A DNA stretch of 56,456 nt from a virus: IMG/VR virus record IMGVR_UViG_3300048839_001000, positions 1 through 56,456 of that record; one strand, 5' to 3'. Numbering within the stretch: position 1 is the first letter of the stretch; every line of letters starts with the position of its first letter. The notes below the pieces were generated by a model. That model saw nothing but the letters and a program-made list of their open reading frames with translations. It was not told where the DNA came from and ran no database searches. Position numbers and translations under genes: made by a program. Of this stretch, positions 1 to 56,456 are shown piece after piece.

Positions 1-447
1 CACAGCTTCATCTACGTGCGTACGGATATGATTGTTGTCGAAGAACTGCCGACTGTCTTGCGCGTAGGTGCATCCAGCCGTGACCGCGCACAAATTGCGT
101 AGCGAATAGTGCATGTACTGCGCACAACCAAAGCATGGCATGGTAGTCACGTAGGCGTAGAAAACATCGTCTGCGAGTCCACGCTGCATTGCCTGATTCA
201 CTGCATTTCGTTCTGCGTGAATGGCTTTACATCGACGCAAATCGCCGCTCTCGTCGAATGCGCCGGCACACGGATGCTCAATGCAATGCGGTTCACCTGA
301 TGGCACTCCATTATACCCAGTCGATACCACGAAGTGATTGCGATCAACCAACACACAGCCTACCGCTCGTCGAATGCAAGTGGAACGCGTAGCGACAAGC
401 CGAGCCATCACCATGAAGTACTGTTGTCTGTCAGGCCTGAGAATCAT
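1..447 (-). CDS. dCMP deaminase, 3' end cut by the window
   Basis: Deoxycytidylate deaminase converts dCMP to dUMP to feed dTTP synthesis. The frame is open from an ATG at 447 to the left edge (149 codons), so the C-terminus is missing. The zinc site is visible: HAE at residues 77-79 (His ligand plus the proton-shuttling Glu) and PCFGC at 104-108 (two Cys ligands). A GCVLV strand near residue 30 and an NGVPSG turn near 46-51 fit the family. Extra Cys residues at 55, 60 and 73 probably form the second zinc site seen in phage dCMP deaminases. The ATG overlaps the upstream stop codon as ATGA, so translation is probably coupled. It is one of four genes here with counterparts in the T4 hydroxymethylcytosine pathway. 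Confidence 0.9.
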   Translation of the reverse strand, partial: MILRPDRQQYFMVMARLVATRSTCIRRAVGCVLVDRNHFVVSTGYNGVPSGEPHCIEHPCAGAFDESGDLRRCKAIHAERNAVNQAMQRGLADDVFYAYVTTMPCFGCAQYMHYSLRNLCAVTAGCTYAQDSRQFFDNNHIRTHVDEAV

Positions 448-3793: not shown

Positions 3794-3802
3794 TCCTCTG
3801 CG

Positions 3803-4522
3803 TTAGAGCTGAATGCCATCACGCTCGATCATCAAATCGCCGGCGCGGATCGCGTCTCCTGTTTCCTCGAGTGACCGCGCGCGGGCGTTTGCGCGGAGTG
3901 TCTCGCACGCCTTTTTCTCATCGTCGAAATTGAACTCCCACTCGTAATCGCTTATGCTGAGTTGCACCAAGTCGAGTACCGCGTACATGCGGTGTGGACG
4001 TCTGTTATCCTCATGATCCGATACCACCGCGTAGTCATCGCGAACCACGCCGATCAATTCACCACCACCCGCCATATCGAATACTGCGCGGCATGCATAG
4101 CCACAGACGTACGTCGGCATCAACGCAAAGCCGCACCCTGTCGTGACTCGCGACTCGATTGGATGCCGCACCATCGCTTCAGCAGCGTTGCGCACGAGCA
4201 GATCCTCGGCAGCAATCATTGGTCCGACCACGTCCATCGTCTCCTCCGCATAGAGCATCACGTCCTGTACTGCGCTAAGTTCCTGGCGGATCTGTTCGTA
4301 CGCGTGGAGCACTTTGCGTGCCTGCTCAATCTCATGCAGATGGATGGTGCCCTCACCCTTCACAAATGCCTCTGCGTGGCCGACGACAAGCACCACACTC
4401 GCCTTGCCATTCACCACCTCGACGGCAGTGACACCCTCGAACTCGTCGATGTCGTGAGCTGACGGTCCGTCTTCCGGACTCGAATGCTCCTCCATCCACG
4501 AGTGCTTCACCCAGTGAATCAT
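3803..4522 (-). CDS. Hypothetical protein, 239 aa
   Basis: I do not recognise this protein. It has an acidic N-terminus (EEHSSPEDG), a hydrophobic beta-rich stretch (TAVEVVNGKASVVLVVGHAE), a central helical part and a second beta-rich half containing CGYACRAVFDMAGGG. No signal peptide or membrane span is clear. The start at 4522 has AGAGGAG upstream and avoids 14 residues that would overlap the hairpin element. It sits in the block of small genes separated by two-hairpin elements (copy B upstream, copy A downstream), so it may share their expression mode. Confidence 0.75.
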   Translation of the reverse strand: MIHWVKHSWMEEHSSPEDGPSAHDIDEFEGVTAVEVVNGKASVVLVVGHAEAFVKGEGTIHLHEIEQARKVLHAYEQIRQELSAVQDVMLYAEETMDVVGPMIAAEDLLVRNAAEAMVRHPIESRVTTGCGFALMPTYVCGYACRAVFDMAGGGELIGVVRDDYAVVSDHEDNRRPHRMYAVLDLVQLSISDYEWEFNFDDEKKACETLRANARARSLEETGDAIRAGDLMIERDGIQL

Positions 4523-4565
4523 CTCGTTTCTCCTCTCTAATCTGGCGGCCTCACCTTGAGCCATC

Positions 4566-4615
4566 GACCGGGCTTGGAACCGGTCCGCCGCATTACTGGC
4601 GCGTGATGCGCCAGT
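4566..4615 (-). repeat. Two-hairpin intergenic element, copy B
   Basis: Hairpin I (4566-4585) has the same GACCGG/CCGGTC arms and GCTTGGAA loop as copy A. The GCCGCATT linker is conserved. Hairpin II (4595-4615) has ACTGGCGC/GCGCCAGT arms, quite different in sequence from copy A but equally perfect. It fills the gap between the zinc-ribbon gene and the 239-aa gene. Confidence 0.82.
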
Positions 4616-4625
4616 CCTCTGCGCT

Positions 4626-5024
4626 TCAGCCGGCGACTTTGACCAGCAAGCCGCTTTTCACTTCGTACATCTGGCCATGCCCGACACCGAGCAGACCACG
4701 CCCGTTAAGAATCCAGCATCCATCGCACATCTTGGCCCACGGACCGAACACCGTCGCTGCATCGTAGAGATGCGCTCCCTCTTCGGCGATCGTGGCGCCG
4801 CAGAAACTGCATTTCGGTTCGCCGAGAAAGCGTTTCGCCTTCTGTGGTTTGGGCTTCCCAGTCCCCATCTCCATGAACAGATTCGTGGAAGTGGTGGTCC
4901 CAACGAAGCCGCCGACTAACGCATCGTAGGCGCGCTCGGTGGCCTCACGCTCTGCACCGCATGTGCAGACTGGCGCGCCAGTCATTCGTCTGGCGCAGTC
5001 AAACTTGTGGGTGATTCTCGCCAT
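4626..5024 (-). CDS. Small zinc-finger protein with an embedded Walker A-like segment, 132 aa
   Basis: The N-terminus carries Cys residues (FDCARRM, CTCG). The C-terminal half has CSFCGATI and later CDGC, spaced like the four-cysteine zinc domain of ClpX (CSFCG ... CDEC). Between them lies NLFMEMGTGKPKPQKAK. Nine residues of this, LFMEMGTGK, are identical to the Walker A region of the SNF2 helicase 2.3 kb away, with 19 identical bases. The rest of an ATPase domain is absent, so ATP hydrolysis is not expected. GAGAGGAG supports the ATG at 5024. Function unknown; an adaptor or regulatory zinc protein is plausible. Confidence 0.78.
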   Translation of the reverse strand: MARITHKFDCARRMTGAPVCTCGAEREATERAYDALVGGFVGTTTSTNLFMEMGTGKPKPQKAKRFLGEPKCSFCGATIAEEGAHLYDAATVFGPWAKMCDGCWILNGRGLLGVGHGQMYEVKSGLLVKVAG

Positions 5025-5062
5025 CGTTTCGTCTCCTCTCTACTCTCCAGCGGTCTCCATCT

Positions 5063-5112
5063 GCTCGGGCTTCGGACCGAGCCGCCGCATTACTGGCGCC
5101 TCTCGGCGCCAG
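5063..5112 (-). repeat. Two-hairpin intergenic element, copy C
   Basis: Hairpin I (5063-5082) has GCTCGG/CCGAGC arms, differing from copies A and B at paired positions on both sides, with loop GCTTCGGA. The GCCGCATTA linker is conserved. Hairpin II (5093-5112) is CTGGCGCC/GGCGCCAG. The paired substitutions are direct evidence that the structure, not just the sequence, is conserved. Confidence 0.82.
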
Positions 5113-5125
5113 CCGTCTGCGTTCG

Positions 5126-5464
5126 CTACTTCGAATTGCGCTTGGCCTTCTTGCTGCGGTTAGCGAGCTCGCGGCGCGCGATGGCGTAGCACTTGGCGAC
5201 GACTTCGCGGCTGGTACCGACGCCGTGGTGCCGGATCGTCACCTTGATGGCGTGGATCAGGACGTTGGCGACGTGCAGATTCTTGCGGTCGATGGCGCGC
5301 ACCTGTCGCGCCAGCTTCTTCGCGTTGGCGGCGGCCAGCTTCTTCGCTTTACGCTCCGCCGTCACCTTCGCTCGCGCGGCGGACTTCGCCTCACGGATCC
5401 GCTCGCGCACCGCCTCGAGCTCCTTGGCCAACTCGACGATCTGCTTCTCATTCTCCGTAAACAT
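5126..5464 (-). CDS. Small basic coiled-coil protein, 112 aa
   Basis: The first ~60 residues form a highly charged helix (VELAKELEAVRERIREAKSA and a run of Lys/Ala). A more globular part follows (LHVANVLIHAIKVTIRHHG), then a very basic tail (RRELANRSKKAKRNSK). The net charge is strongly positive, so nucleic-acid binding is possible. AGAGAGGAG supports the ATG at 5464. The last codons and the following bases (TCGAAGTAGCGAACGCAG) match those of the gene at 5970-6410, which suggests that gene ends and flanking elements were duplicated together. Confidence 0.75.
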   Translation of the reverse strand: MFTENEKQIVELAKELEAVRERIREAKSAARAKVTAERKAKKLAAANAKKLARQVRAIDRKNLHVANVLIHAIKVTIRHHGVGTSREVVAKCYAIARRELANRSKKAKRNSK

Positions 5465-5487
5465 TGTACCGCTCCTCTCTTATCTTC

Positions 5488-5533
5488 AGCACGAAGGCCA
5501 GCGGGATGGAACACCCACCCCGTTGGCCGTGCT
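5488..5533 (-). repeat. Long interrupted intergenic hairpin
   Basis: Arms AGCAC, GGCCA and CGGG on one side pair with CCCG, TGGCC and GTGCT on the other, with small internal loops. It occupies the same place (between a stop codon and the next ribosome binding site) as the two-hairpin elements and is followed by the same TGCGTTC string, so it may be a diverged relative. Confidence 0.6.
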
Positions 5534-5546
5534 GTGGTGTGCGTTC

Positions 5547-5876
5547 TTAGAGCTCGCTCGCGGCGAGCTTCGCCATCTCCGCCTGGACCCGCTCCATCTC
5601 GGCGAGGAGCTCCGCCTTGCGGCTCTCCTTGTCGATCTTCGTCGCCATTGGAATCACCTGCTCGCGGAGCTCCGTCTCCTCGATCTTCGCCTTCGCGAGA
5701 TTCGCCTTCGTCCCCTCAAGGTGCGCCGCGATCTCCGCCGCCTTTCCCTCCCAGAACACCACCATGTGCTCGAGGTGCTTTCGCGTCTCGACCACCGCGC
5801 CGAGCCGCTCGCGAGCGGCGTTCTCGCGGCGGTTCGCCGCGTAACTCGGGAGTTCGCTGAGTTTCCGTCCGATCAT
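5547..5876 (-). CDS. Small coiled-coil protein, 109 aa
   Basis: A predominantly helical protein. After a short basic N-terminus (MIGRKLSELPSYAANRR) come long heptad-like stretches (VVETRKHLEHMVVFWEGKAA; KIDKESRKAELLAEMERVQA) ending in MAKLAASEL. I see no catalytic or metal motif. The start at 5876 is preferred over a longer in-frame ATG because GAGAGGAG precedes it and the longer version would run through hairpin element D. It belongs to the block of small charged genes separated by hairpins; function unknown. Confidence 0.75.
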   Translation of the reverse strand: MIGRKLSELPSYAANRRENAARERLGAVVETRKHLEHMVVFWEGKAAEIAAHLEGTKANLAKAKIEETELREQVIPMATKIDKESRKAELLAEMERVQAEMAKLAASEL

Positions 5877-5902
5877 GGTCCTCTCCTCTCTCTTCTTCGC
5901 GC

Positions 5903-5956
5903 GGCCGGGCTTTGGACCGGCCTGCCGCATTACTGGCAGCGATGCTCCGCCGCCAG
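5903..5956 (-). repeat. Two-hairpin intergenic element, copy D
   Basis: Hairpin I (5903-5922) has GGCCGG/CCGGCC arms, a third covarying version, with loop GCTTTGGA. The GCCGCATTA linker is conserved. Hairpin II (5933-5956) keeps CTGGC/GCCAG and an inner GCG/CGC with a mismatch and a larger loop. Like copy C it is followed by CTGCGTTCGCTACTTCG, which includes the end of the upstream gene. Confidence 0.8.
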
Positions 5957-5969
5957 CCATCTGCGTTCG

Positions 5970-6410
5970 CTACTTCGAGTCGGCGGCGACGAGAGCCTCC
6001 AGCTCCGCCTGCATCTTCGCCAGTTTCTCCTTAGCGGCGACGAATTTCGCCTGTTTGCGGGCGATCGACTTTTCGCTGATCGCCGGTTTCTTCGCCTTGG
6101 CGGTCCAGTACTCGGCGTAGGCGGCGGCCTTGAACAAGCAGAACGCTGCCCAGGTCGAAACGGCGGAGTCGCCGACGAGCGCGGTGTCGCGAAGGGCAAC
6201 CGCCGCCTTGTACTCGTTGAAGTTGAGGATGCAGGGGACGCGGAGCGGGTCGTTCTTCTTCACCTCGGCGAGCTTGGCGCTCCGCTTCTGGCGGTGAGCT
6301 ACGCGGCGAGCTGTACGTTCCGCCTGCTTCTTCGCCTCGAGCGCCTCGGCGCTGAGCGGCACCTTGTTGGCGCTCGTGGTGGTGGCGGTGTTGGCGATCT
6401 GCTTCGACAT
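5970..6410 (-). CDS. Small charged helical protein, 146 aa, paralogue of the 131-aa protein at 3247-3642
   Basis: The N-terminus is Thr/Asn rich, then Lys/Arg/Ala rich (KKQAERTARRVAHRQKRSAK). The middle (DPLRVPCILNFNEYKAAVAL, WAAFCLFKAAAYAEYWTAKA) and the coiled-coil C-terminus (PAISEKSIARKQAKFVAAKE) align with the gene at 3247-3642 over most of their length. GAGAGGAG precedes the ATG. Function unknown. The duplication with flanking hairpin elements suggests amplification of a whole gene cassette. Confidence 0.8.
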   Translation of the reverse strand: MSKQIANTATTTSANKVPLSAEALEAKKQAERTARRVAHRQKRSAKLAEVKKNDPLRVPCILNFNEYKAAVALRDTALVGDSAVSTWAAFCLFKAAAYAEYWTAKAKKPAISEKSIARKQAKFVAAKEKLAKMQAELEALVAADSK

Positions 6411-6767
6411 GGTAAGTCTCCTCTCTACTCTCTTCTCTTCGGTCTGGCGGAGTCGGGCAAGTTGCCCGCCGTTCCCGTCATTCCTGAAGGTATCTTAACC
6501 CGTTTTCGTGGGAGTACATTTCTTTTTGCCACTTTTCTGTCTCCGTAAGTCCTTATGTACCAAGGACTTATATCATTGTCCCAAACTATTTAATGTAACC
6601 TTGGCGGGTCCACATTCAACTTCCTCCGTATTCTGTTTTCATGTGGCGATACGCCGTTACATCTTGTTTCTACCTTCAAAAGGCTCCCACGTTCATGCAT
6701 CTTTGCCTACTATAGTCCACTATTTTACACCTTTGCGAGGCAATCCATCAACTTGATCAACCTTGTT
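6411..6767. other. 357-base intergenic region between the HNH gene and the small-gene block
   Basis: This AT-richer stretch has no convincing long gene. It holds a hairpin at 6454-6468 (CGGGCAA/TTGCCCG), the possible 35-codon gene described separately, and a minus-strand nine-codon ORF preceded by GGAGG at about 6600. A minus-strand TTGATG with a TAAAAT 18 bases later (about 6720-6760) could be a weak sigma70-type promoter. The shared P1-P3 promoter motif is absent. The plus-strand ORF here has no ribosome binding site. Confidence 0.5.
6425..6532 (-). CDS. Possible small basic protein, 35 aa
   Basis: A GTG at 6532 preceded by GGAGA opens a 35-codon frame that begins MAKRNVLPRKRVKIP and ends RPKRRE. 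Its TAG at 6425-6427 overlaps the ribosome binding region of the next gene, which favours a coupled small gene. The protein would be strongly basic. The evidence is only frame, start and composition, and the hairpin at 6454-6468 lies inside it, so this is tentative. Confidence 0.38.
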   Translation of the reverse strand: MAKRNVLPRKRVKIPSGMTGTAGNLPDSARPKRRE

Positions 6768-7211
6768 CTATGTGGTTTCATCCTCCATTCCAAGCTCACG
6801 TTGCATCTTCTCCAGCTCGCGTCGCATCTGCTCGACGGCGGAGAGTTTCTCCTTTAGTACACGTTTTTTCAACCTGCGTTCGCGTAGCTCTCTGCCGTGC
6901 TCATTTGGTTGACGACTTTCGCCGGCGCGATTCTCTCCTCGTCGTTCCCACCGTAGATTCTTTGCAGAGCAGTCACTCGGATCTCCGTTCATGTGGCGAG
7001 CTTCGTGACCAACTGGCTTTGGTCCGACGAAAGCCTCCAACACAAGTCGAGCCACGGTGGTCGCGTGCCACCTACCTTTGTCATTGCGCATGTTCACGAC
7101 GCGGTACCCAGTTTCCAGCGAGTTCACCTTCACCGATTTGCCGTGGTGAAACACTGCGCCGCTTTCATCCACCTCGTAACCATCGTGTTCTTTAATCGCT
7201 ACTCTTGTCAC
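6768..7211 (-). CDS. HNH homing endonuclease, NUMOD4/HNH_3 type, 147 aa
   Basis: The N-terminal part (GYEVDESGAVFHHG, then GYRVVNMRND and VARLVLEAFVGPKP) is a NUMOD4-like module. The HNH core follows as HEARHMNGDPSDCSAKNLRW around residues 70-90, with the expected His, Asn and N-L-x-W pattern. A basic coiled-coil tail follows. The start is a GTG at 7211 that overlaps the polymerase TGA (GTGA), with GAGGAGG just upstream; the longer frame from 7244 lacks such a site. It is a free-standing endonuclease directly after DNA polymerase, a classic location for homing genes. The polymerase itself is uninterrupted. Confidence 0.88.
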   Translation of the reverse strand: MTRVAIKEHDGYEVDESGAVFHHGKSVKVNSLETGYRVVNMRNDKGRWHATTVARLVLEAFVGPKPVGHEARHMNGDPSDCSAKNLRWERRGENRAGESRQPNEHGRELRERRLKKRVLKEKLSAVEQMRRELEKMQRELGMEDETT

Positions 7212-9055
7212 ACTGCCTCCTCGTACTTCTTCTTGGTTGACCATGGTTGACCTTCGTCACACGCACTCACTTCAACTCGGATCGGTACGCGAAGTTCCAC
7301 GTGTGGTGACTCCAAGACTGGACGCACTGCTCGAATGAAATCTGCCACACCATCGCTTGGAATCTCGAGCAGAAGTTCATCGTGCACATTGGCGAGAAGT
7401 CGCGCGTTGAACTCCTTGAGCACTGGAGGAATGCTGGCGAGCCAATCCTTCAGCACGTCAGCCGCTGCACCTTGGATGACGTAATTGCGTGCCTTGTGTG
7501 CTAACTCCATTGGTAGATAGTAGTATCTCCTGTATACATTGCGCACGAAACCCTTCGCCCTGATGGTCTCTTCCACGCGTCGCGCGAATTGTCGGATCTC
7601 AGGCAGCACTCGATGCATGTAGTTGTACACGCCGGAGGCTACCACCGAGGCGTTTCGCTCCGTGACATCTTGATCGAAGTTAAAGCGTCGAAGCGCGGTG
7701 AGAATCTTCTCGTCGCTTTCTCGTATCGCTTGTCGAATGAAACTCACTAATGCGCCTTCGAGTTTCATTCGACCCATTCCATAAATGAAACCGAAGTTGA
7801 GTGTCTTCGCGGGCTTCCTTGGTATTCCAAGCATGTCAGCCATCGACTGGTGGTAGTCAGTATTCGGATCTTCATTGTACCTCTTAATGATACCGGGCGA
7901 GTTGGTGTAATGTGCGAAGAGACGAAATTCGATCTGACTGGCGTCGATGGAGATCAATCGATGTCCTGATCTCGGGTAGACCTGCGCCTTCGCACGCATG
8001 TCGAGATTCTGAAAGTTCGGATCTTCACATGCAAGGCGACCTGTCTTGGTGCCGTACTGTTTGAAGTTGGGATGTAAGGTGTCATCTGGCGCGAGTCTCT
8101 TCAACCAACCTTCACCGAACGAAGCATAGGAGTAACTCAACTCCTTCACGTCAGCTGCTAAGTCGCCTACTGGCAATCCATATGAACGAAGTGTTTCTGC
8201 ATCCCACGATGGGTTACCGGTCTTCGTCCACTCCTTCGGTTGCATGGACAACTTGTCTCGAAGGATGCGAGTCATCTCTTTGTTTGACCCGGTGTCGAGA
8301 TGTTCACCCGCCAGTTCATCGAGTTGGTCTTGCTTCGTCAAAAACTCCTCGAGCGTTTTGGTAGCGAATTGAAGCAACTGTTTGCGCGGTACATTGACAC
8401 CGTGTAATTCCGAGTCGAGGAGAGTACGTGTCGCCTTGCGTTCGATCTCAAATAGTTGCATGCATTCCGGTGGAAGTCTCTGGAGAAGTTTCTCCTTCAA
8501 CTCCATGGTAGCATTCAAGTCATGGCAGCAGTAGGTGCCGAGGATGTCAATGGGCACCTTGCCGTAGTCCTTTGTCTTTGCTGCTTCGCAATACGCGTTA
8601 ACAGCATCGGAGTCTTTACGTGCGCTTATGTCACAGTAGTCTTTTGACAACGCCGCCAATGATGCTTGGAAGCGAAGTGAGTCCACCATGCGCGCGAGGA
8701 CCATCGTGTCAAGCAGATCACCGAGCAGATAGATGCCGTCCTGATAGGCGAATCTACAGTCAAACTTGATGTTGTGCCCCACCCACGTGCGTGGGCGCGA
8801 CGCAAGATCTTTCAACCATCGCATCGTCTGCTCGTAGTCGAGGTTCTTAGCGTCTGGCGAGCGGTGCCTAATTGGCAGGTACCACGCCTCTCTACTCTTC
8901 GCCATCAAACCGTAGCCGGCGACTCGGTGCCCATTGAATGGATGAAACGCCGGTTCTTCATCGTTGAACGACGTGGTCTCCACGTCGATCCCGAGTTCAT
9001 CCTCGGAGGACAGGTCGGGCAACTGCGCGGTTGAAGTCAGTACATTGATCTTCAT
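7208..9055 (-). CDS. DNA polymerase I family (family A) with 3'-5' exonuclease, 615 aa
   Basis: This is the replicative polymerase. The exonuclease motifs are intact: GIDVETTSF (Asp24, Glu26), GHNIKFDCRFA near residue 96 and YCCHD near 175. The polymerase motifs are also intact: motif A SIDASQIEFR near 367, motif B RKPAKTLNFGFIYG near 416 and motif C VHDE near 556. Motif B carries Phe at the position equivalent to Phe762 of E. coli Pol I, not Tyr. No 5'-3' exonuclease domain is present. The start overlaps the end of the kinase gene as ATGA, and the HNH gene follows with a GTGA overlap. Confidence 0.97.
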   Translation of the reverse strand: MKINVLTSTAQLPDLSSEDELGIDVETTSFNDEEPAFHPFNGHRVAGYGLMAKSREAWYLPIRHRSPDAKNLDYEQTMRWLKDLASRPRTWVGHNIKFDCRFAYQDGIYLLGDLLDTMVLARMVDSLRFQASLAALSKDYCDISARKDSDAVNAYCEAAKTKDYGKVPIDILGTYCCHDLNATMELKEKLLQRLPPECMQLFEIERKATRTLLDSELHGVNVPRKQLLQFATKTLEEFLTKQDQLDELAGEHLDTGSNKEMTRILRDKLSMQPKEWTKTGNPSWDAETLRSYGLPVGDLAADVKELSYSYASFGEGWLKRLAPDDTLHPNFKQYGTKTGRLACEDPNFQNLDMRAKAQVYPRSGHRLISIDASQIEFRLFAHYTNSPGIIKRYNEDPNTDYHQSMADMLGIPRKPAKTLNFGFIYGMGRMKLEGALVSFIRQAIRESDEKILTALRRFNFDQDVTERNASVVASGVYNYMHRVLPEIRQFARRVEETIRAKGFVRNVYRRYYYLPMELAHKARNYVIQGAAADVLKDWLASIPPVLKEFNARLLANVHDELLLEIPSDGVADFIRAVRPVLESPHVELRVPIRVEVSACDEGQPWSTKKKYEEAV

Positions 9056-9576
9056 TCTGCCACCCGTCTTTCATACATTGACATGATCGAATCAATTTCA
9101 AATACCCCGTCTTGCGCTGTCACCACCATCACCGGTGATCCTGTGATCACGCAGTTCTTTCGTAACAAATACTCGTCGTACATCTTGTAGACATCACGAA
9201 GATCTTTGTGGTCCAGCAATGGATCGCCACGCTGTTTCAATCTGTTCAAACACACGTCGTACTCTGGCCTAACGTAGACAGTCAAAGAGCGGGCCGCGTC
9301 CATTCTGTCGGCAACGTCGCCAACGTTCTTCTGCGTCAATTTGACGTTTGGTCCACCGCGCCACAGACGTCCATAGACAAACTCACTCACGATAAATCGA
9401 TCCAACACAGCAAAGCGTTGGCAGCTAACCATGTAGTGGTGACAATAGTCCCACCACGTTGGCAACAACCCGTAACACTCGAAGCGTTTGAGTCGCTCGG
9501 TGTCAAGCAATCTGCGAGCAACGATGCGCGCCAGGGTACTCTTACCAGCACCATCGGCTCCTTCAAAGATGATCAT
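9052..9576 (-). CDS. Deoxynucleoside monophosphate / thymidylate kinase-like protein, 174 aa
   Basis: A P-loop kinase beginning MIIFEGADGAGKST (Walker A at residues 6-14), with LDRFIVSEFVYG matching the DR(Y/F)xxS motif of thymidylate kinases and a downstream YVRPEYDVCLNRLKQRGDP lid-like region. Such phage enzymes phosphorylate dTMP and, in T4 gp1, hydroxymethyl-dCMP and dGMP. It overlaps both neighbours by ATGA and lies directly after the dCMP-hydroxymethylase-like gene. That order makes phosphorylation of a modified dCMP an attractive role, though substrate specificity cannot be read from the sequence. Confidence 0.85.
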   Translation of the reverse strand: MIIFEGADGAGKSTLARIVARRLLDTERLKRFECYGLLPTWWDYCHHYMVSCQRFAVLDRFIVSEFVYGRLWRGGPNVKLTQKNVGDVADRMDAARSLTVYVRPEYDVCLNRLKQRGDPLLDHKDLRDVYKMYDEYLLRKNCVITGSPVMVVTAQDGVFEIDSIMSMYERRVAE

Positions 9577-10670
9577 GTAGTCTCCTCTTTCGCTATCTTA
9601 TCTGATGCGCACATACACGTGAGCGACATGAAATCGTTCACGAACTCAAAGCCTAGTTCCTTTGCGCGTGTTGCCACACGGGGTTCAAAGGTCGACAGCA
9701 AGCATGACCTGAAACTGACACTGACATGCTCCATCGCTCTGATGAAACTCGACCACTGCTTTGCTTTCCACAAGTGGTACGCCATCATCACCATGAACGC
9801 ATCGCACCACCACGTCGTGCCATAGTCGGAGAGCAAACGGAGTTGCTCTTGTCTCATGCGTTGAAACATGTTCGGCGGTTCTTCTCGCATCTCCATGTCA
9901 AACTGCACGATGTCTGCGCAAAGTTGAATTGCACTGTTGCAGTCCACGTCCGGTCTGCCGTTGGTGCATGCCCACATTCTACCTCTCGTCGCAGCCATCA
10001 AGACAGCGTCGAGAATGTCATCATACAGGCCGGTGTAATAGTGGAGTGAATCTACAGTCTCCACCATCTCACCTGTGGCCATTCGCAGTGATCTCGCGAT
10101 GGTGTCGTGTATGACAGTGAACACAACGTGGTCATGCGGAACTCCCCAAACCAAATCGCTGGAGCGCCGAATCACATGTGCGTGAAGTACATTGTCGACT
10201 GCCTTCAACATCATCATGACATTGCACGGATAGTCGAGTCGTCCATCGGTAGCATCCAATGCTGGATTCCATATTGTCATTAGCGCGCGCCTGGAGCCAG
10301 GATCTCGCGTTAGCTCATTGACAACAAAAGCCAATTGATTGTTGGTGTGGAGTCTTTGACCATAATGACCTTCGAATGTCTTGCCGTCGTGGGAGAACTG
10401 CTTCACGTTGGCATTGTAGAATGCCAAGTACTCCGTGCTGTTATGCCCGGCCAGTATCGACACTGTCTCCGCGAGACTAAAACAGTGGTTAATGCCGCGA
10501 CCTGGCACCACTACGAATCGAGCAGAAGTATCCGGCGTAATCACCATCACCGGTCTCTGCTCTACCGATTTGGTGCCTCTGCACTCTCGAAGGCGCCCGA
10601 ACCTATTGACCGATCTCACTTGATTGCCGTAAGAAGCTGGCCAGTGCGGTCCAGTAATGAGAACACCCAT
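9573..10670 (-). CDS. Thymidylate synthase-family enzyme, probable dCMP hydroxymethylase, 365 aa
   Basis: The thymidylate synthase fold is clear: GHYGQRL, DPGSRRALMTIWNP, the nucleophile Cys in YPCNVMMMLK (near residue 147), IRRSSDLVWGVPHDH and DSLHYYTGLY. The position of E. coli ThyA Asn177, which reads the uracil ring, is Asp here (PHDH, near residue 178), as in T4 gp42 (FRNDY). That favours dCMP as substrate and hydroxymethylation, or methylation, of its C5. About 130 extra C-terminal residues are unlike ThyA and unassigned. The start at 10670 (AAGGAGG, TAATG overlap) is preferred to an ATG 22 codons upstream. The dCTPase-like gene precedes it and the kinase gene follows. Confidence 0.85.
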   Translation of the reverse strand: MGVLITGPHWPASYGNQVRSVNRFGRLRECRGTKSVEQRPVMVITPDTSARFVVVPGRGINHCFSLAETVSILAGHNSTEYLAFYNANVKQFSHDGKTFEGHYGQRLHTNNQLAFVVNELTRDPGSRRALMTIWNPALDATDGRLDYPCNVMMMLKAVDNVLHAHVIRRSSDLVWGVPHDHVVFTVIHDTIARSLRMATGEMVETVDSLHYYTGLYDDILDAVLMAATRGRMWACTNGRPDVDCNSAIQLCADIVQFDMEMREEPPNMFQRMRQEQLRLLSDYGTTWWCDAFMVMMAYHLWKAKQWSSFIRAMEHVSVSFRSCLLSTFEPRVATRAKELGFEFVNDFMSLTCMCASDKIAKEETT

Positions 10671-11191
10671 TAGTATCCCTCCTTCTGACGTCTGCTGTTC
10701 TCCGACATCTTGGCGAGGTACAGATGCGCAAAGCACTCGCCATCACCGCCAAGCAACAGCCAGCAGTTCATCAAGAAGCACATAGCGTCCATCACTTCGA
10801 GCCGTGCCTCCCATACCTCGTCGGCTAACATCACCTTACCGTCGTTCTGACGCCATGGTTTCCATGGTGTTGTTTCGAGGAGCTCTGTCATCTCGGCGAT
10901 GGTGGCCAGTACGTTGACACGCATCATCTCGCGCCACAGCGGGTCACCAGAACGTAGCAGCGCGTGCGCGTCGTCGTTTACTTCAACGTTAGGACTGAAA
11001 TTGGCGTTGCGTTCTTCACTGACGGGCTTGCACTCCTTTTGGAAGGCACGTTGCACCTTCACTAAGTTAGCCATCAGTAAATCCGACCTTGGCAGACTAG
11101 GAGAGACAATACGGTGGTGTTTAGTCTCTTCGACCTGTTTGAAGTACGCTTCCATCACCTTTGGCCAAACCTTCTTCCTGTCTTCTGCCAT
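10670..11191 (-). CDS. dUTPase/dCTPase-like all-alpha NTP pyrophosphatase, 173 aa
   Basis: This resembles the dimeric, all-helical dUTPase / T4 dCTPase (MazG-related) family. The metal-binding helices are IAEMTELLETTPWKPW (E-x-x-E type) and EARLEVMDAMCFLMNCWLLL (E-x-x-x-D type), and the C-terminus has the family signature K-x-x-EN-x-x-RQ-x-x-GY (KMSENSRRQKEGY). T4 gp56 is almost the same length (171 aa) and removes dCTP while making dCMP for hydroxymethylation. Adjacency to the dCMP-hydroxymethylase-like gene supports a dCTPase role, but dUTPase cannot be excluded. Confidence 0.85.
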   Translation of the reverse strand: MAEDRKKVWPKVMEAYFKQVEETKHHRIVSPSLPRSDLLMANLVKVQRAFQKECKPVSEERNANFSPNVEVNDDAHALLRSGDPLWREMMRVNVLATIAEMTELLETTPWKPWRQNDGKVMLADEVWEARLEVMDAMCFLMNCWLLLGGDGECFAHLYLAKMSENSRRQKEGY

Positions 11192-11192
11192 C

Positions 11193-14042
11193 TTAAAGCT
11201 CCTCCTCTGCGTGCTTGGGTGCCGCCGGTACCTTCAACTCGTTACCATCCCTCAGGTCCTTCAGCAATTTCAAGAATGCCGGCGTCTTCACATAGGCATT
11301 CCTGTATCGTCGCAGCGCTCGTTTTCGAACGAGCAACCCGAGCAAGGCACGAGCTTCATCGAATGACTGTCCAGCCCAGTCGACTAGATCAGTGTGCATG
11401 ATGAGTGATGCATTCAACATCGCATTGACTACGTCCACTGCGTACGGTAAACTCGTGATGGCCTTACTGATAATCGGTTCATCGTCCATGGTGGATTCAC
11501 CGAGAAGCAGCTTCGAGTACTCTAAATATCCGAAACTAGCGGAGTCATAAATCTGTTGAATCATCTCTGACACCACTCTAACGTGACACTCGCGTACTAC
11601 CAACGTGTTTCCATCATCGGTGGAGAACAGACGCGCAGCGAGCGAAGCAGAAAGTCGTGCGAGCTTCAAACGTTGGTCCGCTGATTCCACGATTGGTACC
11701 GACGATGAGTACTTGCGTCCCATTGCCGTCGCTATTTCTAAGATAGCATCGACAGCGTTCTCTTCAAATCGCACTTGATTCGGTTTGCGTGACCACGCCC
11801 AAAGCACTAACTCACGGCAGGCATCCGAGGTGTACTTATGAGCGACAGTTGGCAGTCTATCGATGCGTGCATTGATGACTTCTTCTGCCACTTCTTTGGA
11901 GCCGAGACAAATGGCGACATCGAATCTTCGCACATCTTCAAGAGAGCCGATCAGCTCCCTCACTGCCTCGATTCCATAGTTGTAGGTGTCCAGTTTTCTG
12001 CCTGAACGCGAATTGCTAATCCAGATGAGTCGACATCTGCACGTAGTCTTGGCCTTCTCGATCTTGCTGATCTCGATGATACCTGACGAGCGTGCATCCG
12101 TCATCTTGGCGATCATGTCGGTGCCGAGACCCTTCGCTTCTTCGAGCGCGACGAGTCTTCGATCGTTGAGCGTAATGACACCCCATGAAATGAACCATCG
12201 CCTGCTGGTCTCTTGTAGACCTCCGAGTAGGCCGGCGATCGACGATCCCTTGCAGTCCACCTTCTCACCCAATCTGTAGTGCTCCATCAAGGCGGTAAGT
12301 GCAGCGGACTTTCCTTGAGATGAATCGCCGACCACCAACGCCTCGACCCATCCTTTGTAGACCTTACCTTGGAATGGGACGTAGAGAACACTGTGGTACA
12401 CCAAGTCGTAGACGAGATGAAGATGCGGACGTTGCCGAATCAGCGTCACGTTGGACTCGAAGTCGGTGTAGATGTCCTTCAATTTGTCTCGCACCGCAGC
12501 CTCGGTGTTCTCCGACTGAAACATCCTCAATCGATCATGCATCTCCGGTGTCATGTCAAACAGTTCTAACGAATCGACTTGAGCCTGCGCCCTATTGATC
12601 AGTAATGTAGCGTACTGCGTGTTCGGCTCCGGCAGACACCGTGCTTCTACCTCGTATGAAGTATTGGTCTCGATGCCGTGCCCAACGTAGAAGGCTCTGC
12701 GAACAACATGCTCTCCACTGTTCTCCGCTATCTTTAACTGCGGGATCAAACGCACCTCTTCAACGTTGTACATCTCTATTGGAACGAAGACGCACGAACG
12801 ACAGATCTGTGGTATGCGAGCCGCCTTCTTCAACGCGATCGGTTGACGCTCCAATTTGATATTCACCAGCTCAAGAAGCGCTGGGTCGGTGTCCTGCAAA
12901 GTGACCTCAGGAAGTTCCTGCTCTGCTTTGAACACGGAACAGAAAGCACAGTACTCCTGATCGCGTAGACATCGCACTTGAAATTTCTGTGGAACGGTGT
13001 ACGGCGCAGTGTCCTTAGCGGATACCACGCAGGAAATCTTGACCATCTTCGAGTAGTACTTTGCATGCGAAGACTCGCCGAGAGACACGTCGTACACCTT
13101 CGCGTCACGAGTCACCTCGTCAGCGAGCGGGGCCGGCTTCCATTCAGGTGCATCGACAAGTACCTGCTGTAGTTCTTCCTTTGTTCGCTTCGCTTTCACG
13201 ATGAAGTCAGTCACGTCACCATGCGGGTACTCTTCGATAGCCAGTGGAAGCAGAATGCTCTTCACCATCTGTGCATGCGGTGCTACGCTATGGAGTACTG
13301 CGAACGACCCGTCTCTGCCCGGTTTATCGATGTCATACATCACCATCACGATCTTGCCGGCGAATTGTTCACCCCATTTGCGAAGCCATTTACGAGCTCC
13401 GCCAGTGGCAGACACCGCGTGAAACCCAAGTTGATTCAACAGCAGAGCCTTCATCTCACCTTCGACAATAATGATGACGTCGTTTGAGAGCTCGCTGACT
13501 GGGTAGAGGCGCAGTTTATTGTGGCCCGGTACTCCAATCACCTTCTTCTCTTGATCAGTGGATGACCACTGCCGGATGTTCAGCACCTTGCCATCGCCGG
13601 CATACACCGGCATGGACACTCTATTCCCAGTCCATCCAAGTCTGTACTTGACGATGGTATCGTGAGTGAGTCCTTTGCGCTCCAGCAAAGTCTGCTGCGC
13701 CTGTTTGTTCTGCAGAAGTGCCTGATGCCACTTCTCCACCAATGCTACATCTATCTCGCCCTCTTCAGTCTCATCATCCCTATCGTTGAGACCGTCGATG
13801 ATGGAGAGGACCGCTCCACGAGAACTCTTTGTCCAGCCAGCAATGTAGTCAGTAGCGTCGCCGCTCTTTCCGCATGCGTGGCAAAAGTACTTTCCACTCT
13901 CCAAATTGATCTCACAACTTGGATGCGCATCGTCATTCTGATGTTGATCTGGGTGCGGGCATCTCACCTTCGCCTTAGCACCATCAGCAAATTCAGAAAT
14001 CAGTTCGACGTCGAAATGTCGAAGTAGTTCTGACACTCTCAT
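11193..14042 (-). CDS. Primase-helicase: CHC2 zinc finger, TOPRIM and MCM-like AAA+ helicase, 949 aa
   Basis: The order is a DnaG-type zinc finger (RCPHPDQHQNDDAHPSC and FCHACGKSGDATDYI, residues ~28-70), a TOPRIM domain (IIVEGEMKALLL near 195; MVMYDIDKPGRDG downstream), a middle region with CAFC and CRSC pairs that looks like an MCM N-terminal zinc/OB region, and an MCM-type ATPase. The ATPase shows GDSSQGKSA (Walker A, near 574), CKGSSIAGL, VALEEAKGL (Walker B), RLIWISNSRSG (sensor 1) and EDVRRFD (arginine finger). T7-type primase-helicases carry a RecA-fold helicase instead. The ATG at 14042 overlaps the preceding stop (ATGA). The protein should unwind and prime at the phage fork. Confidence 0.9.
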   Translation of the reverse strand: MRVSELLRHFDVELISEFADGAKAKVRCPHPDQHQNDDAHPSCEINLESGKYFCHACGKSGDATDYIAGWTKSSRGAVLSIIDGLNDRDDETEEGEIDVALVEKWHQALLQNKQAQQTLLERKGLTHDTIVKYRLGWTGNRVSMPVYAGDGKVLNIRQWSSTDQEKKVIGVPGHNKLRLYPVSELSNDVIIIVEGEMKALLLNQLGFHAVSATGGARKWLRKWGEQFAGKIVMVMYDIDKPGRDGSFAVLHSVAPHAQMVKSILLPLAIEEYPHGDVTDFIVKAKRTKEELQQVLVDAPEWKPAPLADEVTRDAKVYDVSLGESSHAKYYSKMVKISCVVSAKDTAPYTVPQKFQVRCLRDQEYCAFCSVFKAEQELPEVTLQDTDPALLELVNIKLERQPIALKKAARIPQICRSCVFVPIEMYNVEEVRLIPQLKIAENSGEHVVRRAFYVGHGIETNTSYEVEARCLPEPNTQYATLLINRAQAQVDSLELFDMTPEMHDRLRMFQSENTEAAVRDKLKDIYTDFESNVTLIRQRPHLHLVYDLVYHSVLYVPFQGKVYKGWVEALVVGDSSQGKSAALTALMEHYRLGEKVDCKGSSIAGLLGGLQETSRRWFISWGVITLNDRRLVALEEAKGLGTDMIAKMTDARSSGIIEISKIEKAKTTCRCRLIWISNSRSGRKLDTYNYGIEAVRELIGSLEDVRRFDVAICLGSKEVAEEVINARIDRLPTVAHKYTSDACRELVLWAWSRKPNQVRFEENAVDAILEIATAMGRKYSSSVPIVESADQRLKLARLSASLAARLFSTDDGNTLVVRECHVRVVSEMIQQIYDSASFGYLEYSKLLLGESTMDDEPIISKAITSLPYAVDVVNAMLNASLIMHTDLVDWAGQSFDEARALLGLLVRKRALRRYRNAYVKTPAFLKLLKDLRDGNELKVPAAPKHAEEEL

Positions 14043-14323
14043 TGACGTCGCCTCTTTCCAGCGCGATAGTCGCGCATGTACGCAGCTCGGTGCGCTCTCA
14101 CAGCGTCTGGGTCGTCCCAATTAATGGTAGACTCAGCCTTGGGAAGTTCTTTGATGAACCACTCGCACGATGCGCAGCTACCATTAGGTAACTGGCACGT
14201 GGCTCTCGTTGAAATGAATCGGCCGCATCGGTAGTACTTCGAGCCTCGGCCCGGCTCCCAGTTCTTGCACATGCTTTTCTGTGCAGTTGAACATTCACAC
14301 GACGACCCTAATCGACATGGCAT
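14039..14323 (-). CDS. Small cysteine-rich protein, 94 aa
   Basis: The N-terminal two thirds contain eight or more Cys residues (SCECSTAQKSMCKNW, YYRCGRF, TCQLPNGSCASCEWF), likely binding two zinc ions. The C-terminus is very basic (RDYRAGKRRRQ). I do not recognise a named family; zinc finger plus basic tail suggests nucleic-acid binding. GAGGAGAG precedes the ATG, and the TGA overlaps the primase-helicase start, so it may act with the replisome. Confidence 0.75.
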   Translation of the reverse strand: MPCRLGSSCECSTAQKSMCKNWEPGRGSKYYRCGRFISTRATCQLPNGSCASCEWFIKELPKAESTINWDDPDAVRAHRAAYMRDYRAGKRRRQ

Positions 14324-14347
14324 CGCTACTCTCTCCTCGATCTCTTC

Positions 14348-14407: not shown

Positions 14408-14413
14408 GATCGG

Positions 14414-45957: not shown

Positions 45958-46584
45958 TTAAGGTTTAATCCGAAGCAATTCGTTGTGCGTGAGTCTTCGT
46001 CCATCGTGCATCCCGCTGTGTCTCTCAATCCACGTCGCCCTACTATTGCAGATGTTTGATCCATGCGACGTCTGAAAGCACGCGTACGGTGTTGGAACGA
46101 CGCCTTCGAGGACACCATCGCAAATGCACTGGCACGTCATTCTATCAACAACGTCTTGCGGTGTGTCGAGTAAAATTCGCGCGACTGACGGTGTTACAAC
46201 GTAAGCGTGCACTCCTTTTGCGAACTGCAACGTAGACAGTCCGCCTGGGGTGTAGTTCGAGAATGTCGCATGTATAACACCGAAGAAGAATATTGTCGTC
46301 GGTGATAGCGGCATTACTTCGTGCCTTCTAATGAAGAAGGCATCGTCCTCGTATATAGCCGTGGTTTCATTGCGCTTTGCGATCTCTCGCCACACATTCA
46401 AGTGTGCATCTGTAACGATAGTCTCTCGTTCATGCTCCGTTTCAGTAGTGAAATCGGCACCGAGAATAACCTCAGGCATCGGCATTCCAACGTTGCACAT
46501 GGTGCCAAGTGAAACTCGGAGTATCTTTGCACGCGCAGGCGCCGACAATATCACATGACGCTTAATGTATGTCGTCTGGTCCAC
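45958..46584 (-). CDS. Glycosyltransferase family 25-like protein, 208 aa
   Basis: KRHVILSAPARAKILRVSLG and AEITKR-type helices lead to TTAIYEDDAFFIRRHEVMPL near residue 78, the EDDA motif of GT25 (LPS biosynthesis) enzymes. GVHAYVVTPSVARILL matches the family's conserved AY...A..LL segment. It starts with a GTG at 46584 after GAGGA. It lies beside the DPD-type glycosyltransferase, so the two may act one after another on the same acceptor. Confidence 0.76.
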   Translation of the reverse strand: MDQTTYIKRHVILSAPARAKILRVSLGTMCNVGMPMPEVILGADFTTETEHERETIVTDAHLNVWREIAKRNETTAIYEDDAFFIRRHEVMPLSPTTIFFFGVIHATFSNYTPGGLSTLQFAKGVHAYVVTPSVARILLDTPQDVVDRMTCQCICDGVLEGVVPTPYACFQTSHGSNICNSRATWIERHSGMHDGRRLTHNELLRIKP

Positions 46585-49827: not shown

Positions 49828-50018
49828 TCCTCCTCTTTCGTTATCTTTGGATTGATGACAATGCGTAGTGTTACTTTTCCATTGTCATCTCCGTCAAGAG
49901 TTAGCTCGGCATCTTCGAATGCCCGCTTTAAGTCGCTCCACTCGTACAACATTGAATCCGCATCACCGTCTTTAGATGTCGGAGTCACTTCGACGTAGAC
50001 TCTATGTTCGTCGCTCAT
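49824..50018 (-). CDS. Small acidic protein, 64 aa
   Basis: Mostly beta with an acidic middle (YVEVTPTSKDGDADSMLYEW, AFEDAELTLDGDDNGKV). The start at 50018 overlaps the stop of the glycosyltransferase (ATGA); a longer frame would overlap that gene further and is not needed. No family recognised. Confidence 0.65.
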   Translation of the reverse strand: MSDEHRVYVEVTPTSKDGDADSMLYEWSDLKRAFEDAELTLDGDDNGKVTLRIVINPKITKEEE

Positions 50019-50725
50019 GACTTGGCATCTCCCAAGAACCAGCACTTACTGGCGATCATCCTCTGAAGCTTCTGCGATGACGACGTCACCGCGTTGAAGT
50101 GCGTGATGTATCTGTCCTCTGACCTGCAGCACCAATCTTCTTTGACCGGAGCGAACTTTCCATCGGGGAAAAGGTTCGTCGGCAGTCCAAACCACTTCAC
50201 CTTCTCGGTAACGAGCCGCGCGTTGATCAGCTCCTCTTGATTGTGCCATCGATCAAACTCGTCACGCGACGGTTTGAAGAGTCGCCGGCACGCGTCAGTT
50301 GGGAACGCATAGTAGAAGCCATCGCACATGATGGTGAATCCAGGAAACACCGCTTGCTGTGCGATCAGGTCAACCCCGGCGACGTTGAACCACGGCGTCG
50401 GGTCGCGATGGAAGATCACGTCAACATCGCTAAAGAGCACCGGCTCGTCGTGCTGTAGCAGGTGCGTCATCAGCTCCATCTTCGTCCACACGAATGTCTT
50501 CCACTGTCTTGACCCGTACGGTAAAGCTGCTTCGTCCATGGATGCCACACCAGGCACTCTTTTCGCACGACTGTAAGGAGCGTACGGTACCATCGCCGCC
50601 ACTGCGGTGTCATCAGTACAGTACACCGTCAAGTCTTCGGTGTCAATACCCGCCTTCTTCAGACTAAGAAGCCAGTTACGCGCGTACCCGACGTACGCCG
50701 CGTTGATCAAGGTTGCGATGCGCAT
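50015..50725 (-). CDS. Glycosyltransferase (GT77-like nucleotide-diphospho-sugar transferase), 236 aa
   Basis: IATLINAAYVGYARNWLLSL at the start, AGIDTEDLTVYCTDDTAVAA, then FVWTKMELMTHLLQHDEPVL followed by FSDVDVIFHRDPTPW near residue 100. The DVD motif, followed by a short loop and RDP, is the pattern of GT77-like nucleotide-diphospho-sugar transferases. TIMCDGFYYAFPTDACRRLF and the C-terminal WCCRSEDRYITHFNAV fit the rest of the fold. AAGGAGG supports the start. Confidence 0.78.
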   Translation of the reverse strand: MRIATLINAAYVGYARNWLLSLKKAGIDTEDLTVYCTDDTAVAAMVPYAPYSRAKRVPGVASMDEAALPYGSRQWKTFVWTKMELMTHLLQHDEPVLFSDVDVIFHRDPTPWFNVAGVDLIAQQAVFPGFTIMCDGFYYAFPTDACRRLFKPSRDEFDRWHNQEELINARLVTEKVKWFGLPTNLFPDGKFAPVKEDWCCRSEDRYITHFNAVTSSSQKLQRMIASKCWFLGDAKS

Positions 50726-54290: not shown

Positions 54291-54749
54291 CTACTCTCTT
54301 GTGTACGCCAAGTGCTTCACGGGACCTTCGCCCATGAGCATCGCGGCGATCAATCTCGATGTCTCTGCCTTACTGTTGGAAGGCACGAACCACTCCGCTG
54401 GAAAGTCACACGCCACCATGCTGTCGCTGAGTGAGCGAATGAACTTCGGCCATGGTCCACACACCGTGAACACGCCGGCGGCACGCTCTGTGCCGAAAGC
54501 GACCGTGGCGCCCGTACGTGAGAGAGCCATCGACCGTAGCACGCTCTCCTGTCCCGGTGTCAAAGCACTGACGCATGAGAGGAGCGATGCAGCGACCTTC
54601 AACTCAAACGTCATGATCGGTCTGTTCGCTGCCCAGTAGATGTAGTCGGGTAGCCCGCGCTGCATGGCGTCATTGTGGAGCTTGAACACCGTGGCTCCAC
54701 GCATGCGGAGATCCTTCGCCACCATCGACCCTAATTCATTCTCTTTCAT
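54291..54749 (-). CDS. VRR-NUC-type nuclease, 152 aa
   Basis: FKLHNDAMQRGLPDYIYWAA near residue 25-40 and MTFELKVAASLLSCVSALTP near 46 give the PD-(D/E)xK core of the VRR-NUC family (Asp in PDY, Glu and Lys in ELK). The family includes phage Holliday-junction-resolvase-like and recombination nucleases. ALTPGQESVLRSMALSRTGA continues the fold. The ATG overlaps the 3' end of the methyltransferase gene; a ribosome binding site is poor. Confidence 0.82.
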   Translation of the reverse strand: MKENELGSMVAKDLRMRGATVFKLHNDAMQRGLPDYIYWAANRPIMTFELKVAASLLSCVSALTPGQESVLRSMALSRTGATVAFGTERAAGVFTVCGPWPKFIRSLSDSMVACDFPAEWFVPSNSKAETSRLIAAMLMGEGPVKHLAYTRE

Positions 54750-55920
54750 CGTCGCGGTCCCAATTGTTTTGTGGTTTGATGAAGCGATTGCTCACGTTCA
54801 CCTTGAACTCTCTGTCACCAATCTCCTCACCAATCATGTCGCCAGGCTGCCCGTTCAACGCTCGAGCCACCCACTTAGCGCACCATTTGCCGCAGTGCGT
54901 GGTGACTCCTTTGCCGAGCCATGCCGGCCCAGTCTTGTGGTCCGGCGCCATCTTCAGGCTCCACTCTTTTGGGTAGCCCATCAATGTCGCAAGCTCCCTG
55001 TACGTCATGCAGCGCGGTTTGGTGGGATGAATCTGCTGACCGAGTGATCCACCAGAGATGACTGGCCACAAACCGTTGCGCCGAACTCGCTCCACCGAAT
55101 GGAAGCCATCGTGCGCCGCGTCCACAGAGCAGGCAATGCATGCATGTGCCGGCCATCCAATCGCTTCGAAATCCTTCAGCGTGTAGCCGGCATCCTGTGC
55201 TCGGTCGATGGCTACGCCGATCTTCTCACCTTCTTCAAGGCGAGCGATCTCGAGAAGCTTGCGCACGCGGACGTGGTGGTCATCCTCAACATCGTGATGG
55301 CTATCACCATGACCGACGTCGTCCCAGGTCTCCTTGGCGTTCTCCAAGTGCTCGATGTGACTCCATCCAGTCTTGCACCGAGTCCACTCAAGCTGTTCCA
55401 CGCCGAACGGCACCCGTGACATCACTAAGAAGTAGCGGCGACGGAGTTGGGTGCCGCCCAGCGCGGCACAACTATGAAGCAGGTGGGTGATGGTGTACTT
55501 CTCACCGGTAATTGCCTCGAGTGATTCGCGCAGACTCACCATGAGCGGACGGCCCTTCGAGAACGCTTGCTGGACTGACTCCATCACGGTGATTATCGGT
55601 TTGCACTTAGCCGCGAACATCGTGAAGTCACGCATGCACTGATTGATCGGCGCGTCGATGCCCCTATTCTTGCCCGTGTTCAATGAAGAGAAGCCACTGC
55701 ACGGTGGATTGCCAGCGACAACGTCCACGCGTTTCGGTGTCCACAATGTTGGGTCAGTCATCTCTGTTTCCCAACCATCGCCTAACACGTGACGATTGCC
55801 TTCGCACGCTGGTACCCCGAAGCCGCCGGTATGCTCTCGCTTACCGACGAGTTCAAAGCCTTCTGAGACAAAGGAGTACGTTAATCCTCCGGCGAAACAT
55901 TGGCAATCCACAAACTTCAT
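54736..55920 (-). CDS. DNA cytosine-C5 methyltransferase, 394 aa
   Basis: C5-methyltransferase motifs are in order: FVDCQCFAGGLTYSFVSEGF (motif I), GNPPCSGFSSLN (motif IV with the catalytic Cys, near residue 80), IITVMESVQQAFSKG (motif VI, ESV rather than ENV), GGTQLRRRYFLVMSR (motif VIII), and HPTKPRCMTYRELATLMGYP (motif IX-X) with GKGVTTHCGKWCAKW. Modification of its own DNA is likely, against restriction. It is odd that this enzyme shares a genome with an enzyme set for modified dCMP, since modified cytosines would not be its substrate. Start at 55920 has GGGAG and overlaps the previous TGA. Confidence 0.88.
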   Translation of the reverse strand: MKFVDCQCFAGGLTYSFVSEGFELVGKREHTGGFGVPACEGNRHVLGDGWETEMTDPTLWTPKRVDVVAGNPPCSGFSSLNTGKNRGIDAPINQCMRDFTMFAAKCKPIITVMESVQQAFSKGRPLMVSLRESLEAITGEKYTITHLLHSCAALGGTQLRRRYFLVMSRVPFGVEQLEWTRCKTGWSHIEHLENAKETWDDVGHGDSHHDVEDDHHVRVRKLLEIARLEEGEKIGVAIDRAQDAGYTLKDFEAIGWPAHACIACSVDAAHDGFHSVERVRRNGLWPVISGGSLGQQIHPTKPRCMTYRELATLMGYPKEWSLKMAPDHKTGPAWLGKGVTTHCGKWCAKWVARALNGQPGDMIGEEIGDREFKVNVSNRFIKPQNNWDRDDERE

Positions 55921-56456
55921 TCTGATTCTCCCATGCACAAAGCGATGAGTGACTTGGCGACCTTCCGAGGATCGTTATGAGTGCGAAGCGACATTCGATT
56001 CGCTTCAATCTTCTCGTCAAGCTCTCCATCGAGGTGCTGCTCGATGACTTCGTTAACCAGCTTAGCGAAGGCTGGCAACGCCTCTTGGAGCTCTGGTCTG
56101 TTGAACAGATTCTCAGTCAGATCGCTAGTCGGCACCATCGCGTCGAACCACGCGACGTTGAACTGTTCCGTAACCTCGGATCGCTGGCATCCGGCATGCA
56201 CCCCATAGGCACCAGAGTCCATTAGTTCGAGAGCCGTGTACTCGAACATCTCCTTCTGGAAGTGTGGCGAGGTTAACGCGGTATACACGGAAACGTCAAG
56301 GTCGTCGATCGAGCCGAACCCGCCGTGGTACCTGGCCGTATGCCCGTCGAGCGTGGCCTCCCATGGATGTGGCTTCAGGATTGGGTTTGACCCGCTTGCC
56401 TCGATGCTCTTACGCGTCTTCTCGTCAAGGTGCATCGTCCCATTGAATCCACGAAC
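55917..56456 (-). CDS. Hypothetical protein, 5' end beyond the window
   Basis: The frame is open to the right edge (180 codons, of which 7 precede the first ATG at 56435, which has no ribosome binding site), so the gene probably starts outside. The visible part has a beta-like first third (GFNGTMHLDEKTRK, DGHTARYHGGFGSIDDLDVS) and a helical C-terminal part (EALPAFAKLVNEVIEQHLDG). I do not recognise it. It precedes the methyltransferase with an ATGA overlap. Confidence 0.7.
   Translation of the reverse strand, partial: VRGFNGTMHLDEKTRKSIEASGSNPILKPHPWEATLDGHTARYHGGFGSIDDLDVSVYTALTSPHFQKEMFEYTALELMDSGAYGVHAGCQRSEVTEQFNVAWFDAMVPTSDLTENLFNRPELQEALPAFAKLVNEVIEQHLDGELDEKIEANRMSLRTHNDPRKVAKSLIALCMGESE

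Follow-up and report, generated by a model that had tools for sequence, protein, structure and literature searches.

A predicted dCMP hydroxymethylase of an undescribed branch within a probable cytosine-modification gene set of a phage

The stretch of DNA analysed here, hereafter the window, is the record of an uncultured virus, 56,456 bases in length (IMGVR_UViG_3300048839_001000, positions 1 to 56,456), nearly all of whose likely genes lie on the minus strand. Among them are the following, where Asp177 denotes Asp at the position of Asn177 in Escherichia coli ThyA:

1..447, minus strand: dCMP deaminase (PF00383), cut by the window end
7208..9055, minus strand: family A DNA polymerase with 3′-5′ exonuclease, the presumed enzyme for incorporation of the modified nucleotide
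9052..9576, minus strand: thymidylate-kinase/YorR-like deoxynucleoside monophosphate kinase, of a family linked to Asp177 enzymes
9573..10670, minus strand: predicted dCMP 5-hydroxymethylase of the thymidylate-synthase family, 365 aa (PF00303, phrog_5131, residues)
10670..11191, minus strand: T4 gp56-like all-alpha dCTP/dUTP pyrophosphatase, by homology to gp56
45958..46584, minus strand: glycosyltransferase family 25, a weak match below the Pfam cut-off and a candidate only
50015..50725, minus strand: nucleotide-sugar transferase family protein (PF03407), a candidate for glycosylation of the modified base
54736..55938, minus strand: atypical C5-methylase-like protein, with PPCS as motif IV and ESV as motif VI

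The structural genes of the window comprise a terminase, portal, capsid, scaffold, head-tail adaptor, major tail protein and a weak tape-measure match, and no match to a tail sheath or baseplate was seen among the window proteins scanned; this gene content appears compatible with a siphovirus, short of proof. Neither dihydrofolate reductase nor ThyX was found in the window, nor were any tRNAs, and a near-identity search of positions 6000-16000 against phage records returned no match. A 975-aa protein (11193-14120, minus strand) unites a primase part, comprising a DnaG-type zinc ribbon and Toprim, with a helicase part of the MCM-like P-loop kind, an unusual primase-helicase combination. Between small genes at 3743-5940, a 39-base repeat occurs in four copies, approximately 0.5-0.8 kb apart, each containing the short palindrome-like CGACCGGGCTTGGAACCGGTC and perhaps acting as a terminator, and GTCTCCTCTCTACTCTC boxes (GAGAGTAGAGAGGAGAC on the reverse strand), which resemble a common ribosome-binding or regulatory leader, recur at several gene starts between 820 and 54307. 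In one protein (47589-48599, minus strand), a weak methyltransferase match comes after a sulfotransferase-like domain (PF17784), which is unusual for a phage, and another (52584-53042, minus strand) weakly matches nucleoside 2-deoxyribosyltransferases (PF05014, below the cut-off) and is possibly involved in nucleotide metabolism.

In coding-strand order, the gene at 10670-11191 (173 aa) is followed by those at 9573-10670 (365 aa) and 9052-9576 (174 aa) and then by the polymerase gene (7208-9055). A preliminary description of this DNA had proposed three consecutive, overlapping genes resembling those for T4 gp56, gp42 and gp1, with a dCMP deaminase in the same genome. The arrangement was borne out, the three minus-strand genes overlapping across 9052-11191, as was the deaminase, which matches PF00383 with E=4e-19 and runs off the window end. 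The resemblance to gp56 also held, at 29% identity over 89 aa (BLAST E=1e-7) and 16.9 bits by phmmer, with 9.6 bits as the best of 1000 shuffles; this homology spans the catalytic helices, and the protein only just reaches the dUTPase_2 cut-off. The product of 9052-9576 is indeed a P-loop dNMP kinase (Thymidylate_kin 7e-7, phrog_761 6e-21, YorR structure 1.5e-7), but it showed no sequence match to T4 gp1, and a likeness to gp1 is possible for function only.

The product of the central gene, 9573-10670, belongs to the thymidylate-synthase family (PF00303 E=6e-18; phrog_5131 E=1.8e-49). Its top solved-structure match is the CMP hydroxymethylase MilA (E=6e-17), its nearest phage relatives by BLAST are SPO1 gp29-like dUMP hydroxymethylases and P26218 (30-34% identity), and L021, a predicted dUMP-type enzyme with Asn177, is also among the nearest enzymes by overall identity (38% by tblastn). 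The ATG at 10670, giving 365 aa, is the likely start and is preferred to an alternative GTG at 10736 (387 aa) because it overlaps the stop of the previous gene and has AGGAGG just upstream. As the preliminary description had stated, the enzyme has Asp at the position of ThyA Asn177: the alignment places Asp180 there (query RSSDLVWGVPHDH, ThyA RSCDVFLGLPFNI, T4 RSNDVVFGFRNDY), and the specificity loop (E. coli ThyA RSCDVFLGLPFNIASY, T4 gp42 RSNDVVFGFRNDYAWQ, query RSSDLVWGVPHDHVVF) is free of the SPO1-type insertion, a single residue that comes without Asp at 177. Mutation of Asp179 to Asn in the T4 enzyme nearly abolishes dCMP activity (PMC6400193), showing this residue to be a reader of cytosine; in the thymidylate-synthase family, Asp177 marks modified-cytosine contigs (PMC8670742).

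The catalytic Cys149 and the phosphate-binding Arg127 and Arg169 are conserved in the central enzyme, and three residues before the cysteine, within LDYPC, lies Asp146; Asp or Glu at this Cys-3 position is a proposed signature of hydroxymethylation (PMC6400193). By alignment, the enzyme has none of the tryptophans of the ThyA cofactor region, and Ser170 and Arg127 match deoxyribose-preferring enzymes, unlike ribose-preferring MilA, Ser and Arg at these sites favouring deoxyribose over ribose according to the MilA study (PMC5175136). ThyA position 147 is occupied by Asn150; elsewhere, it is Asn in dUMP hydroxymethylases and Thr in T4 gp42, MilA and most Asp177 enzymes. The counterpart of T4 Ser94-x-Tyr96 is Gly101-His-Tyr103, whereas Ser/Thr would be expected two positions ahead of the active-site Tyr in a dCMP hydroxymethylase, and Gly or Ala at the Ser94 position also occurs in SPO1-type enzymes and in most aligned Asp177 phage enzymes.

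A scan of virus contigs with the single protein as query returned no relatives, and the 100 non-identical relatives considered here came from alignment-based scans of such contigs. Classified by residues 177 and 147, 65 have the loop insertion with Asn147, 15 are Asn177/Asn147, 13 are Asp177/Thr147, six are Asp177/Asn147, the class of the query, and one is ThyA-like. A first tree, in which gp42 formed a very long branch, suggested that the query is a mere Asn177-to-Asp version of L021-type enzymes. This was abandoned with a second tree, built with more relatives, with the specificity-loop columns removed and gp42 left out, which moved the query, on a long branch, into a clade with the six Asp177/Asn147 environmental phage enzymes (support 96/94), nested in a larger Asn147 hydroxymethylase group (97/89) and apart from the Thr147 class. 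The AU test did not reject placement of the query with the whole L021-like Asn177 group (p=0.395) and gave p=0.097 for placement with L021/L023 alone; a single Asp177 clade among hydroxymethylases was not rejected either (p=0.455), and an independent origin of the cytosine choice is therefore not claimed. Relatives of the window terminase, 40-41% identical, are present in four of the six Asp177/Asn147 phage contigs, the other two being short, and in none of four Asp177/Thr147 contigs, which supports a probable phage ancestry common to the window and the Asp177/Asn147 clade. Judged by its sequence, the central enzyme is thus placed in a different, so far undescribed branch of predicted hydroxymethylases, combining Asp177 and Asn147 on an SPO1-type body. 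The gp42-like enzyme of the preliminary description accordingly keeps its Asp177 and hydroxymethylase features, but a close kinship with gp42 is unsupported, as the query groups with SPO1-like Asn147 hydroxymethylases in the tree without gp42.

The approximately 130 C-terminal residues reported earlier as unexplained are present, with 153 residues after the conserved HxY motif versus 55 in ThyA, but they do not appear to be unique to this protein. The extension weakly matches the L021-type C-terminal domain (12.4 bits; maximum of 500 shuffles 5.3) and the SPO1-type domain (11.4 bits; maximum of 500 shuffles 7.6), with no match to the short Asp177 enzyme forms, and is most probably characteristic of the long hydroxymethylases as a family.

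Two associations in genome context accompany Asp177. Of 19 Asp177 loci, 17 have a relative of the kinase and 15 a dCMP deaminase gene; among 81 other loci, the respective numbers are one (L056) and five. Many of the contigs are related, so that these counts are not independent and the Fisher values are inflated, but the pattern is seen in both Asp177 classes, and in L029 and L108, as in the window, the kinase gene lies directly 3′ of the hydroxymethylase gene. Among Asn177 hydroxymethylase loci, L056 (5228-7080) alone combines a relative of the kinase with a dCMP deaminase. The second association concerns the C5-methylase-like protein, whose family yielded 268 relatives in the scan; the family has PPC[SA] as motif IV and, in 73 of 79 cases, ECV or ESV as motif VI, and motif I is altered. 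A synthase-family gene is present in 23 of 31 long contigs carrying such relatives, and all 23 of its products have Asp177 and Asp at Cys-3, while none of the 31 control contigs with ordinary C5-methylases (GPPCQ motif) has a synthase-family gene. Among named phages, Forza, Phendrix and DSL-LC01 pair a C5-methylase-like relative with an Asp177 synthase-family gene, GMA2 pairs one with a synthase-family gene, and Kurnik pairs one with a true gp42-type enzyme with the Asp. No description of a link between this family and Asp177 hydroxymethylases was found in the literature searched.

These data support the C5-modified cytosine predicted earlier, of which 5-hydroxymethylcytosine or one of its derivatives is the most likely form; the gene set very probably produces it ahead of replication, as in phage T4. 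From the homology, residues and conserved gene context observed we infer a substrate, a product, its incorporation and its later decoration as follows. The gp56-like enzyme would hydrolyse dCTP (and dUTP) to dCMP (dUMP), which would keep normal cytosine out of DNA and supply the dCMP substrate. The Asp177 enzyme would then hydroxymethylate C5 of dCMP with methylene-tetrahydrofolate, Cys149 attacking C6, Asp180 reading and protonating the cytosine and Asp146 activating the water from which the hydroxyl derives. The kinase would begin the conversion of hm-dCMP to hm-dCTP, the family A polymerase would incorporate the latter, and the dCMP deaminase would balance cytosine and thymine precursors. 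We consider it probable that 5-hydroxymethylcytosine, possibly decorated further, replaces cytosine in the phage DNA, and highly probable that cytosine is modified once 5-methylcytosine is admitted as an option. Cytosine is favoured because of Asp177, Asp at Cys-3 and the two context associations (kinase/deaminase and C5-methylase-like), and the missing ThyA tryptophans, Ser170 and Arg127, the gp56 homology, the failure to find dihydrofolate reductase or ThyX in the window and the restriction-resistant DNA of AXL3 also speak for it; against it stand Asn147, the Gly at the T4 Ser94 site and the fact that the enzymes closest in identity, predicted to act on dUMP, have Asn177.

The last of these points raises the prospect of an SPO1-type dUMP hydroxymethylase, with 5-hydroxymethyluracil replacing thymine, a gp56-like enzyme that is mainly a dUTPase and a kinase acting on hm-dUMP. 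SPO1 gp29-like and L021-like enzymes are nearest by BLAST and have Asn147 and a long C-terminal domain in common with the query, but Asp177 is found in all six relatives of its supported clade, the T4 Asp179Asn mutation speaks against dUMP as the substrate by nearly removing dCMP activity (PMC6400193), and it is with Asp177 enzymes, not dUMP enzymes, that the associated families of the kinase and the C5-methylase-like protein go together; the chance of this alternative is accordingly rated as slim. An Xp12-type dCMP methylase, forming 5-methyl-dCMP with dihydrofolate as by-product and leading to 5-methylcytosine in DNA, is only slightly less doubtful: Asp177 selects cytosine without deciding between methyl and hydroxymethyl, and a true thymidylate synthase mutated from Asn177 to Asp yields 5-methyl-dCMP (PMC8670742), yet Asp at Cys-3 and the absent ThyA tryptophans fit hydroxymethylases, and the Asp177 enzymes with Asn at Cys-3 (PaMx28, Elanor) adjoin dihydrofolate reductase genes, none of which was found in the window. 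The least credible reading, which the AXL3 paper (PMC7504290) gives for the AXL3 genes, is that an ordinary thymidylate synthase does no more than boost dTTP together with a thymidylate kinase, a dUTPase and a dCMP deaminase. Each of the four families does have members serving dTTP synthesis, but the central enzyme has Asp177 and Asp146 and lacks the ThyA tryptophans, and AXL3 itself has a separate ThyX and restriction-resistant DNA; ordinary thymidylate synthesis was ruled out on residues and context.

A further point against replacement of cytosine by 5-hydroxymethylcytosine is that the C5-methylase-like protein of the window, unless its action is a different one, would seem to have nothing to do on DNA fully substituted at C5. 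C5-methylases can react with 5-hydroxymethylcytosine in vitro, and a role on modified cytosine is therefore worth testing. As a tentative and rather speculative proposal, the protein might act on hydroxymethylated instead of ordinary cytosine, employing the chemistry of methylases, with cysteine attack on C6 and flipping of the base, so as to attach or swap a group at the 5-hydroxymethyl position. Genes for glycosyltransferases and MazG are situated near the C5-methylase-like gene, on the same strand, in Kurnik, Phendrix and DSL-LC01; no similarity was seen between the glycosyltransferase-bearing stretches of these phages and the glycosyltransferase-like genes of the window (50015-50725 and 45958-46584). 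The latter, both on the minus strand, could decorate modified cytosine or the host surface.

The tight link between the C5-methylase-like family and dCMP hydroxymethylases hints at a putative step in the modification of phage DNA, and should the proposal be correct, the family would form a novel class among DNA hypermodification enzymes, common to many phages with dCMP hydroxymethylases. The Asp177/Asn147 branch is useful for learning how the choice between uracil and cytosine evolves in pyrimidine hydroxymethylases. The genome-context rule predicts which uncultured phages have modified cytosine, and the sequenced isolates AXL3, Forza, Phendrix, GMA2 and Kurnik are therefore directly testable.

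Compared with the T4 gp42/gp56/gp1 system, the window has the equivalent of Asp179, Asp at Cys-3, an adjoining gp56 homologue, a dNMP kinase and a dCMP deaminase, but the central enzyme is only 22% identical to gp42, with Asn147 for Thr, Gly for Ser94 and a far longer C-terminus, the kinase is not a gp1 homologue, and the genes are contiguous whereas those of T4 are scattered. The label 'T4-type' given earlier is apt only in part and needs amending for the placement of the enzyme, the kinship of the kinase and the C-terminal extension. With the SPO1 gp29-type dUMP hydroxymethylases (also YuA-like, ViI-like and P26218), the enzyme has in common the QFSxDG..F.G.YG motif, DxPCN, RSxDLxWG and, by a weak match, the long C-terminal domain; these enzymes differ in their one-residue loop insertion and in having no Asp at 177, and neither the linked kinase gene nor the C5-methylase-like gene was found at their loci, unlike in the window. 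MilA, the best solved-structure match, has Asp186 at position 177 and differs in its preference for CMP, conferred by Ala176 and Lys133, where the query has Ser and Arg. The Stenotrophomonas siphophage AXL3 carries pyrophosphohydrolase, kinase, Asp177 enzyme and dCMP deaminase genes in one run, and differs in having a short enzyme with Thr147, a methylase from another family and, in addition, ThyX. Such a gene set in a long-tailed phage is therefore not unprecedented, AXL3 having one. Its authors read the genes as thymidylate synthesis; of 37 enzymes, only TasI and Tru1I, with sites made up of A and T alone, cut AXL3 DNA, which resisted all tested enzymes with G or C in the site (PMC7504290).
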